A stretch of DNA of 30,898 bases, taken from positions 1 through 30,898 of the IMG/VR virus record IMGVR_UViG_3300033816_000923; one strand, given 5' to 3'. Of this stretch, positions 12,457-28,287 are shown in pieces (position 1 is the first letter of the stretch; each line of letters opens with the position of its first letter). Below the pieces are notes generated by a model. It saw nothing but the letters and a program-made list of their open reading frames with translations, ran no database searches and had not been told where the DNA came from. Made by a program: the position numbers and the translations under genes. Source of the stretch: a virus.

Positions 12457-12597
12457 TTACTTGCCGTCGTCCAGCAACGCCTCGAAGCGCTTGCAGATTT
12501 CCTCTGCCCACTCTGGGGACAGCTTGTCGTAACCGGTCAGGTGCGCGTAGTCCAGAAGCTCTTGGTCGGTCAGCTGTTGTGGTCGAATGCCTTGCAT
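12457..12597 (-). CDS. 46-residue microprotein between the HTH and primase genes
   Basis: A short ORF begins at ATG 12595-12597, preceded by GGAG with good spacing, and ends at TAA 12457-12459. It encodes 46 residues starting MQGIRPQQLTDQELLDYAHL and ending in an acidic/lysine tail. The start overlaps the last 28 bases of the upstream HTH gene and the stop lies 19 bases before the primase-helicase start, so it fits the coupled gene order. The composition is that of a small acidic helical protein. No function is recognised. The ribosome site, spacing and lack of any other gene in the gap support it as real. Confidence 0.65.
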   Translation of the reverse strand: MQGIRPQQLTDQELLDYAHLTGYDKLSPEWAEEICKRFEALLDDGK

Positions 12598-12848
12598 GCT
12601 TTACTCCATGCCTCCTCGGCCGTGCCGGAAGACTGCAAAATTTGAACGAGAGACGTCACCGTTGGTCGGTACGCCACGAAGACTTCGCCGCCGCTGAACC
12701 AGTTGTAGATCGTCTGACGAGACACGCCGGTCAGCTCAGAAATCTTGGTCACGGGGAAGTTGAGATACACGGCCCAGCGCCCAAGCTGGTTGCCCAGCGT
12801 CTTGGGGGCGCTCTGAACCGCGTCAATCACTTGTTGGGAATATGCCAT
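12570..12848 (-). CDS. Small helix-turn-helix DNA-binding protein
   Basis: This is a 92-residue protein with one clear helix-turn-helix at about residues 31-54: KISELTGVSRQTIYNWFSGG is the recognition region, with the typical GVSRxTIYNW pattern of Cro/XRE or phage-regulator HTHs. The rest is helical with no catalytic motif. It lies between the probable ssDNA-binding protein gene and the primase-helicase gene, so it may regulate the replication block or act in replication initiation; both are inferences. Upstream there is an 84-base gap that could hold its own operator. The ribosome site is not strong. Confidence 0.8.
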   Translation of the reverse strand: MAYSQQVIDAVQSAPKTLGNQLGRWAVYLNFPVTKISELTGVSRQTIYNWFSGGEVFVAYRPTVTSLVQILQSSGTAEEAWSKACKAFDHNS

Positions 12849-24927: not shown

Positions 24928-25151
24928 GCTGCACACCTCACAAGGTTGATGCACGTATCACGCAGCGCGTTGGTGAGAGGTGCGCTGGTGGTGAACGCAG
25001 CCAGCACGTACGTGGTGCCGCTGCTACGGCACTTGGCCTCCACTGCGTACATGTAAGGTGTCCCGAAGTGCTGACGCCTGACCCGGAAGTCAAACATGTC
25101 CTCCGTGGGGGGCTTGAACAGTCTCCACTTGACCAGCTCGGGCTCGCTCAT
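24924..25151 (-). CDS. Unknown 75-residue protein
   Basis: ATG 25149-25151 overlaps the VWA-peptidase stop as ATGA; GAGG lies upstream. The product is a beta-rich small protein (FRVRRQHFGTPYMYAVEA, then GTTYVLAAFTTSA) with a C-terminal helix. The coupled start directly behind the VWA gene suggests a partner, without other evidence. No function is recognised. Confidence 0.6.
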   Translation of the reverse strand: MSEPELVKWRLFKPPTEDMFDFRVRRQHFGTPYMYAVEAKCRSSGTTYVLAAFTTSAPLTNALRDTCINLVRCAA

Positions 25152-26332
25152 GGACGAATCCTCAACACCTTGCCTGCGCGTGGCATGAAGTCTTCGTTGT
25201 CCACGACACCCCACAAGGTCGGCATGTCGGTCATGCGGTAGTCGGACTCGATGTAGCCATCGGTCAGCATGATGACAGCCTTGGCCTTGATCTTGTGCTC
25301 GGCCACGTAGTCAGCAACACACGACACAACGGTGCCGCCACCGCCCTTGGGTGCAAGCTGCGTGGCAATGTCTTGGTACTGCTCGGGCTTGAACACCTGA
25401 TCGCCGCACACCTCCGTGTCCCACCACAACATGCGCACGCTGTCTGGTCGTGTGTTCTGCACGATACGCGCCACTTCACCGAACACAACAGGGTACGCCC
25501 AGTGCATGGAGCCTGACGTGTCGCACGCAATGACGATCTCGCCAATGTTCTCGTCGAAGTGCGAAGGCATGATGAAGCCGGACGCAAGCAAGCGCTTGTT
25601 GGGTGGGCAAAAGCGTGAGTTCTCGTCGCCAACGCACACAGAACTGATGAAGTCCTGCAACGCATCACGCCAGTTGGTCACGCGCTCCTGCGCTGTGCCA
25701 AGGATGTCACGGCCACCCTCTTTATCGCCACGCATCTTGCGCACAAGCAACTCGCCTTGGCGGTTGGCATCGTCGACCATCTTGCCCAGCTTCTCGGACT
25801 CCTCGGGTGTCATGGGGTCACCACCACCCTCGCCGTTCATCTGGTGGTCGTCCATGGCCTGCGGCTGTTCGTCGGCATCCTTGAGCAACTCTTGCAGCAC
25901 CTGCGGGTACGACATGCCCTTGAACTTCTCGTCGAACAGAATCTTGATCTTGGCGGGGAAATCCATGAACTTGCGCTCAGGGTCAAGCTCGTCGATCAGG
26001 CCGTTGACCACGTAGTCCATGGCCGCGTTGTTGATCTGCGGACCGAAGCGCTTGCTGTACCCAATGTACGCTGGCAAGACGCAGTGCTTGAGCGCCACGT
26101 GGAAGTTCTCGTGCAGCACAACGAAGCGCAGCTCCTTGCGTGTCAGGTCACTGATGAACGCTGTGCCGTACAGCTTGTCCTTGCCGTTGGTTGCAGCAGT
26201 GGGCATGTCATCACATGCCTCGGACTTGCCCATGCACACGATGCCGGACAGCAGCGCGAACTTGTGGTGACGCATCACGTCGATGTTGCACGCTTGGATT
26301 TTCTGGTTGGGGGTAAGTTTGTCAAAGCTCAT
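25148..26332 (-). CDS. VWA-domain protein with zinc-peptidase-like N-terminal domain (DUF2201-like)
   Basis: This 394-residue protein has two linked modules. The N-terminal part (1-160) carries H74-E-N-F-H78 with H83 nearby, a DUF2201-type zincin signature. A charged linker (about 155-235) follows. The C-terminal VWA domain has the MIDAS set D271-T-S-G-S275, T334 (GGGGT) and D358 (LTDG), which would bind Mg. Such proteins are usual partners of MoxR AAA+ ATPases, and such an ATPase is encoded three genes upstream on the same strand. The shared GGAGAAGCAACC leader precedes ATG 26330-26332. A soluble protein, no signal peptide; the substrate is unknown. Confidence 0.88.
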   Translation of the reverse strand: MSFDKLTPNQKIQACNIDVMRHHKFALLSGIVCMGKSEACDDMPTAATNGKDKLYGTAFISDLTRKELRFVVLHENFHVALKHCVLPAYIGYSKRFGPQINNAAMDYVVNGLIDELDPERKFMDFPAKIKILFDEKFKGMSYPQVLQELLKDADEQPQAMDDHQMNGEGGGDPMTPEESEKLGKMVDDANRQGELLVRKMRGDKEGGRDILGTAQERVTNWRDALQDFISSVCVGDENSRFCPPNKRLLASGFIMPSHFDENIGEIVIACDTSGSMHWAYPVVFGEVARIVQNTRPDSVRMLWWDTEVCGDQVFKPEQYQDIATQLAPKGGGGTVVSCVADYVAEHKIKAKAVIMLTDGYIESDYRMTDMPTLWGVVDNEDFMPRAGKVLRIRP

Positions 26333-27008: not shown

Positions 27009-28133
27009 TTACTTCGTGCTGAAGAAAATCTTGTGCGATGCCAAGAGCGAACCGAAGTTCGTCAACGACACATAGTGCGCAATGTTGGACGAGTTGGCCA
27101 CGCTGTTGCAGAAGATCGACTGCATCTCTGTGCGCATGCGCAGCACGTACTCAACAACCTTGGCCGCATCGTCGCGCTTGTCAACGCGTGAGACGAACTG
27201 GAACACCTGCACAAGCTGCGCAGTGGGGTTGTCGGCCAGCGGCGCAGTCGCAGGGTCTTTGAGCACACGTTCGAGTGAGCAGATGTCACGGCCAAAGCGT
27301 ACGAATGAAGACAGCGCCTCAGCAGTCGTGGCACCCAGCGTACCGATCAACGCAGCCTCAAGCGTGTCATCGTCGAGCACACCGTCACCAGCATCGAGCA
27401 CGTCACCCGCTGCAACCAAGCTGCGCGGCGTAGCATATGCCAGTGCCATCGAGCGAGGATTGAAGATGTAGCCGTTGTCCTTGGACTGATCCTTGCCCTC
27501 GTGCTTGCCGCCCTTCTCGTAGTCGAGGAACGAGTCCATGACCTGAGCGTAGCTGTTGACGAATGCAATCACCGAAGCGTTGACGCCCTTGTCGATGGCC
27601 CACTGCACCCACTCGCCAGCGGTAGGCTTGCGCATCTTGACGAACACGAGACGGTTGCGCAGGTGCGCCTGAATGCTATCGCCAAGACCCTCAACAGCCA
27701 AGTTGGTTGCACAGAACACCACGCTACCCTCGGGCATGTGGTAGTTGCCAACGCGGCGCTCGTAGATGATCGGGGCCAGCACGTTCTTGATGAACTGCGG
27801 AGCCTTGGCGATCTCGTCGAGGAACACCATGATTGGCTTGGCATCGTTGACACCCATCTGATTGGTGCGCGATACACCGAAGCGCTCGTTTGGCAACTCA
27901 CGTGACACGCCGTTCTCGCGGTCGAGGTCAGGCATCCACACAGAACCATCGGAGAGCTGTGTGCAATCGACAGGGTCAACTGCGATGTGGCCAGCGAACT
28001 TGGGGTGCTTCTTGAGCGCGTGGAACAGCGCGGTCTTGCCTATGCCGTTCTCGCCCTCGACGATGACGGTGCGCTTGTCGCCAACAGCGGCGATGAGGTT
28101 GAGGACTTGAGTGAAAGAAAGCATTTTGTTCAT
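27009..28133 (-). CDS. MoxR/CobS-type AAA+ ATPase
   Basis: This 374-residue protein is an AAA+ ATPase: Walker A GENGIGKT at 27-34, Walker B VFLDEI at 103-108, a sensor-1 region FCATNLAVEGLGD and RNRLVFVKM around the arginine finger. It resembles MoxR/CobS ATPases, which power VWA-domain partners and act in metal-chelatase or protein-remodelling complexes; phages carry such CobS-like ATPases. It has the right partner, the VWA protein encoded at 25148-26332. ATG 28131-28133 is preceded by AGGAG. The 148-base upstream gap holds a strong promoter and hairpin, so it is probably the first gene of the MoxR-VWA transcript. Confidence 0.88.
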   Translation of the reverse strand: MNKMLSFTQVLNLIAAVGDKRTVIVEGENGIGKTALFHALKKHPKFAGHIAVDPVDCTQLSDGSVWMPDLDRENGVSRELPNERFGVSRTNQMGVNDAKPIMVFLDEIAKAPQFIKNVLAPIIYERRVGNYHMPEGSVVFCATNLAVEGLGDSIQAHLRNRLVFVKMRKPTAGEWVQWAIDKGVNASVIAFVNSYAQVMDSFLDYEKGGKHEGKDQSKDNGYIFNPRSMALAYATPRSLVAAGDVLDAGDGVLDDDTLEAALIGTLGATTAEALSSFVRFGRDICSLERVLKDPATAPLADNPTAQLVQVFQFVSRVDKRDDAAKVVEYVLRMRTEMQSIFCNSVANSSNIAHYVSLTNFGSLLASHKIFFSTK

Positions 28134-28173
28134 GATTAAGAACTCCTAGTGATGAAAGAAAAATTGAGAGGTT

Positions 28174-28198
28174 ACTGGGGAGAACCGTTCTCCCCAGT
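28174..28198 (-). other. Perfect 11-bp hairpin, loop 3, at the predicted transcript 5' end
   Basis: ACTGGGGAGAA (28174-28184), loop of three, TTCTCCCCAGT (28188-28198), with no mismatches. On the minus strand the transcript from the promoter at 28206-28235 should start at or next to its first base, making it a 5'-terminal hairpin. On the + strand it is followed by TTTTT (28198-28202), the form of a Rho-independent terminator, but no + strand gene lies near it. Confidence 0.75.
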
Positions 28199-28205
28199 TT
28201 TTGAT

Positions 28206-28235
28206 ATTGTATCTCATTTGTCCATTGTTTGACAA
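28206..28235 (-). promoter_or_regulatory. Strong sigma70-like promoter for the MoxR-VWA operon
   Basis: On the minus strand TTGTCA (28230-28235) and TACAAT (28206-28211) are 18 bases apart; each box matches 5 of 6 consensus bases. The expected start, about 7 bases beyond the -10, is near 28198-28199. It lies after the stop of the 28282-29247 gene and directs transcription into the MoxR gene. It is the best promoter seen in the window. Confidence 0.6.
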
Positions 28236-28271: not shown

Positions 28272-28287
28272 CCCTGACACGTCAGGG
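28272..28287. repeat. Inverted repeat over a stop codon
   Basis: CCCTGAC and GTCAGGG (28272-28278, 28281-28287) with a 2-base centre overlap the TGA of the 28282-29247 gene. No T-run follows directly on either strand, so it is a weak terminator candidate at most. Confidence 0.4.

Follow-up and report, generated by a model that had tools for sequence, protein, structure and literature searches.

Dispersed phage-specific palindromes, one of them at a MoxR-VWA operon start site, are probably stoperator-like operators of an orphan phage protein

Phages of an uncultivated group carry phage-specific palindromes that are probably stoperator-like operators of a phage-encoded protein, here termed protein A, and one of these palindromes lies at the start site of the MoxR-VWA operon in the DNA studied here (IMG/VR record IMGVR_UViG_3300033816_000923; 'the window' denotes the whole analysed stretch of 30,898 nucleotides). 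For this copy, at 28174-28198, a role as candidate DNA operator of protein A is the reading that we favour and hold to be fairly likely on comparative grounds; it is supported by a conserved promoter, the existence of a palindrome family, DNA-like mismatch statistics and covariation with protein A. Because the arms follow protein A and show no RNA-pairing signature, the palindrome is probably a DNA-binding site of A rather than an RNA stabiliser only.

A preliminary description of this DNA had reported a perfect 11-bp hairpin, a TTGTCA-18-TACAAT promoter and the placement of the former at the transcript 5' end by the latter. The hairpin is indeed a perfect 11-bp stem with a 3-nt loop (ACTGGGGAGAA-CCG-TTCTCCCCAGT); its energy on the - strand is -18.7 kcal/mol, a value that none of 200 shuffles equalled, and no other stem in the window reaches 11 bp with a loop of 3-8 nt. 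Such a stem is present in 13 of 100 shuffled windows, so that its length alone is just mildly unusual, and the bare promoter motif occurs at the chance level for the region (5 found versus 5.0 expected); the case therefore rests on comparison with relatives. Promoter and palindrome occupy the gap between the upstream gene, which ends at 28282, and the MoxR gene, which starts at 28133; relative to the predicted transcription start, the stem sets in at about +2. All genes called from 9484 to 30869 lie on the - strand (Table 1).

Table 1. Positions of the promoter, palindrome and associated genes (window coordinates unless stated otherwise)
Feature	Position	Strand	Remark
Palindrome ACTGGGGAGAA-CGG-TTCTCCCCAGT (coding strand)	28174..28198	-	Proposed protein A operator and 5'-proximal hairpin of the MoxR transcript
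-35 element TTGTCA	28230..28235	-	Motif match; kept in relatives
-10 element TACAAT, spacer 18 nt	28206..28211	-	Motif match; kept in relatives
Inverted repeat TTGTC-N8-GACAA over -35 and spacer	28218..28235	-	Candidate second operator
Predicted MoxR transcript 5' leader, 66 nt	28134..28199	-	Start at ~28199 inferred from -10
MoxR-type AAA+ ATPase gene	27009..28133	-	First gene after promoter
VWA-like gene (DUF2201)	25148..26332	-	Same strand and cluster as MoxR gene
Gene A	6065-6505 in L003		L003 overlaps the window; gene A lies just outside the window itself

The MoxR promoter is judged real by its conservation: among 80 MoxR loci fetched, 27 were picked as retaining it, some of them closely related to each other and thus not independent. 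An inverted repeat TTGTC..GACAA spans the -35 element in most of the 27 and is near-constant between phages, in contrast to the downstream palindrome; read as TTGTCAA-N4-TTGACAA, it lies over -35 regions at 28218-28235 in the window and at 4714-4740 in L077 as well as in the relatives of L077, and probably serves a different regulator. In most relatives from L077 on, MoxR directly follows a different gene, apparently VWA, and has neither promoter nor hairpin upstream. A further palindrome, TCTCCACAA-N4-TTGTGGAGA, whose arms are the same in many phages, occurs after the third slot (L077 104-125 and relatives).

The hairpin at the MoxR slot is retained in position more than in sequence. Of the 27 promoter-bearing loci, 24 have a 5'-proximal hairpin (within the first 50 nt, at -7.5 kcal/mol or better) and the other three have none, which supports its placement at the 5' end counted from the predicted start; many of these hairpins start at +1 to +9, while in L049-L053 the main stem starts at about +19 to +21, not at the extreme 5' end. 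The arms vary (GGGAGAA, GTGAGAC, GGGAACA, GCGGACA, GCTGACA and others), even between phages with 99-100% identical MoxR: the window has GGGAGAA arms, and relatives with 99-100% identical MoxR have GTGAGAC arms. Conservation with compensatory changes, which the preliminary description had proposed to look for, is seen in part, as stem changes in L059, L061, L064 and L066 preserve RNA pairing (a double change plus G.U pairs), whereas the palindrome family at large shows no such changes.

By sequence, the 28174-28198 hairpin is one copy of a dispersed palindrome. Four further viral contigs contain the exact 25-mer, one of them in triplicate, and 45 contigs contain its 17-nt core. Almost all phages examined carry a palindrome family of their own, in which the arms are constant and the centre varies (usually 3 nt); it typically numbers 4-8 copies per genome, confined to the early operon, which runs from a divergent promoter to MoxR. 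The slots are the same across phages. Most copies are intergenic (68 of 85 copies in 15 genomes mostly so, versus an intergenic fraction of 10%), roughly every second copy (66/129) has a stop codon within 16 nt, and many are found just past stop codons or just ahead of ribosome sites. Phages with A2- and A3-type proteins carry one copy inside gene A, where it codes different residues in each family, and in type A1 phages copies flank gene A rather than lie in it. Among the centres of all relatives, CGG outnumbers CCG on the coding strand (34 versus 8, with related copies counted repeatedly). An Rfam search for the element returned no match, a search of cultivated phages only weak chance-level pieces, and a host-origin scan of genome contigs 23 scattered single matches, near the estimated chance level. 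Two further elements were observed alongside: a second dispersed family, GCCGGTGCGGTTCACCGGC, with five copies at 8658-11207 of L004, the same contig as the GGGAGAA family; and a near-constant near-palindrome, GTGGAACAGTGTTCATG, in the divergent region upstream of gene A in most relatives.

Mismatches within the arms can separate a DNA site from an RNA stem, as selected RNA pairing is expected to leave an excess of G.U over A.C. The palindrome arms show none (G.U 24 versus A.C 23 on the coding strand), their deviations are mostly confined to one arm (113 single-arm versus 14 matched), and C.C and G.G mismatches are common (e.g. AACTSGCAGACA) because the half-sites vary independently. As positive control, the 5'-terminal hairpin that these phages have at their early promoter gave G.U 45 versus A.C 3 with compensatory changes, a significantly different ratio (Fisher p 2e-6). 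Control stems were the best 9-bp match per leader under Watson-Crick scoring alone, which treats G.U and A.C alike; palindrome copies were picked by their similarity to a consensus arm defined for each genome, up to a set number of mismatches, a selection that might favour symmetric copies and should not favour A.C over G.U. On these comparisons the palindrome family has the statistics of a DNA operator and not those of an RNA stem. The control hairpin (e.g. ATCGGTT..CCGAT) is itself a genuine conserved 5' RNA hairpin, a stem-loop directly after the -10 element of the early promoter upstream of gene A (L003 reverse strand ~2000-2040; same place in L206 and G001-G019).

Protein A, the partner proposed for these sites, is the first protein of the divergent early operon, an orphan of ~120-145 aa. 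L003 matches the window at 100% identity over 1,654 bp and continues past the window's right end, after which the two differ by one gene. L206 is ~98% identical to L003 over the common left flank yet has another gene A, and it carries TTGCGGACA palindromes where L003 has ACTGGGGAGAA, with near-identical flanks on either side. One copy upstream of gene A in L206 retains GGGGAGAA arms (L011) and GTGAGAC palindromes are retained farther downstream in L003, which indicates that the rewriting is incomplete. A C-terminal piece of A is common to L003, L206 and G001, implying that the N-terminal domain was exchanged.

Across 26 phages, protein A distance was correlated with half-site distance given a neighbour gene (partial Mantel r 0.63, p 0.0002), and the neighbour gene was not correlated with the arms given A (r -0.05); with hand-set half-sites and phages of common ancestry, the permutation p is not exact and serves as a guide. 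Masking the palindrome-coded segment leaves the covariation intact, and it is also seen within type A2 (p 0.011). Protein A was picked after the fact, once two other proteins, C and B, had been examined. That choice did not draw on the loci retrieved solely by A sequence, above all L247; these have the arms expected for their A type wherever a family is detectable (e.g. L247), several short loci being without a detectable family and some being records seen before.

The zinc-ribbon protein C (L003:4241-4969) was rejected as specificity factor since its zinc domain is identical in L003 and L206 and the palindromes differ. This protein, whose gene lies among the palindromes, is conserved, with orthologues in 65 of the loci and genomes compared; it contains two CxxC motifs and matches no Pfam family. 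Small protein B was rejected as well: the B of L206 resembles that of G001 although the arms differ, and several GGGAGAA phages showed no B-like protein. CsrA-like loop recognition was discarded because the palindrome centres are too variable.

Searches with protein A gave no Pfam or PDB match, only weak PHROG matches and no match among cultivated phages. Its predicted structures (mean pLDDT 86 and 80; pTM 0.64 and 0.60) suggest helices and a beta-hairpin in a winged-helix-like order; fold searches returned nothing significant, with LysR, MarR and BlaI domains at E above 1 only, and thus neither sequence nor a significant fold match reveals a recognisable DNA-binding domain. Elsewhere in the window, at 12570-12848, a 92-aa protein shows weak helix-turn-helix similarity (PF13384, E 2e-4, which falls short of the curated cut-off).

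In the mechanism that we propose, protein A would recognise the palindrome, probably as a dimer, each phage of the group pairing an N-terminal domain of its own with corresponding palindrome arms. When bound, A would halt or retard RNA synthesis in the early operon, of which gene A itself is part, and on palindromes away from promoters it may act as a roadblock. At the MoxR slot, the A site would cover about +2 to +26 of the conserved promoter, and A may thereby repress the MoxR-VWA operon or postpone its expression. A T-run usually accompanies the copy after gene A, which may double as a terminator. Several points count against the operator reading: protein A shows no recognisable DNA-binding domain by sequence or significant fold match, and the gene A of this phage lies beyond the window; L058, L071, L125 and the L059 group have at the MoxR slot a hairpin other than their own palindrome, and three relatives have no hairpin there; and the centre bias is not explained by a symmetric operator.

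There is room for a separate 5' RNA role at the MoxR slot, since a hairpin is kept there also where it is foreign to the phage's own palindrome family. Stabilising stem-loops at the extreme 5' end are known from the ompA type, and the MoxR hairpin resembles them in lying at or near the transcript 5' end, within a few nucleotides of the predicted start. The protection of MoxR-VWA mRNA by a hairpin that blocks 5'-end-dependent decay, alone or atop an operator role, is a possibility to which we give a minority share. The 5'-proximal position kept in 24/27 loci despite sequence change speaks for it, as do the preserved pairing in the L059 group and the true 5'-terminal RNA hairpin at the early promoter of the same phages. 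Unlike the ompA stem-loop, the sequence at the MoxR slot is particular to each phage, recurs at a distance from promoters and is linked to protein A; the whole family is without an RNA signature, and the main stem of L049-L053 is displaced from the 5' end. The mRNA protection put forward in the preliminary description thus keeps its positional support and, with DNA-like family statistics and arms that follow A, would be at most a second role.

Less likely is a hairpin that acts as RNA and is bound by A or some other phage protein, in N/boxB-like antitermination or translational control. The coding-strand centre bias and the many copies just ahead of ribosome sites would suit it, and covariation with A suits any contact between A and nucleic acid, but the arms have no excess of G.U over A.C and mostly change singly. 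We consider it slightly less probable still that the palindromes are REP- or MITE-like repeats spreading by copying or gene conversion with no trans-acting partner and the gene A copy as donor. Many near-identical copies in each genome and replacement between near-identical flanks are consistent with such spreading; against it, masking the palindrome-coded segment does not remove the link of the arms to A, the link also holds in type A1 phages, whose copies flank gene A and do not lie in it, and slots shared across phages mean that copies do not insert freely. An intrinsic terminator on the + strand, an appearance that the preliminary description had remarked on, is very improbable despite the TTTT after the stem on that strand and the coding-strand T-run that follows the copy just after gene A in most phages, as no + strand gene is called in the window from 9337 on, the T-run beside the MoxR slot is not retained in relatives and many other copies have none.

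The operator reading can be placed among known systems. Lambdoid CI/Cro operators are palindromic sites of a small phage regulator with fast-changing specificity, clustered at two promoters; the sites proposed here are likewise palindromic and assigned to a small phage regulator with changing specificity, but spread past stop codons along the operon. Closest are the stoperators of Cluster A mycobacteriophages, the sole parallel that we found in the open-access literature on dispersed phage-specific palindromes. These are genome-wide sites of one repressor, mostly off promoters and up to ~30 per genome, asymmetric, ~13 bp long and bound by a monomeric repressor in temperate phages (PMC6550527, PMC9283540), and from phage to phage their motif varies along with the repressor (PMC6550527). 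The palindromes are similarly dispersed in several copies, mostly off promoters, with a motif that tracks protein A. They differ in being palindromic, ~17-27 bp long, present in 4-8 copies per genome and restricted to the early operon; in place of an asymmetric site in one orientation there are palindromic arms with just a CGG-over-CCG centre bias, and protein A is unrelated by sequence to any known family. A tyrosine integrase (PF00589) was not found in 16 records of these phages, which may be incomplete. By analogy, the palindrome/A system appears to work like stoperators, and we do not file it as a member of that class.

In its widest form, a proposal to which we give about even chances, these probably virulent phages would possess an orphan family of small regulators with swappable N-terminal specificity domains and their own dispersed palindromic operators, and domain exchange would be accompanied by the rewriting of operators in place at several slots, including the MoxR promoter. 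How and why several operators are rewritten together between near-identical flanks upon exchange of a regulator domain is the question that this raises; interference between co-infecting phages of the same A type is a possible reason. If the proposal is true, the many related phages would amount to a natural set of regulators with their cognate operators, and a code of protein-DNA specificity could be deduced from it and put to the test.
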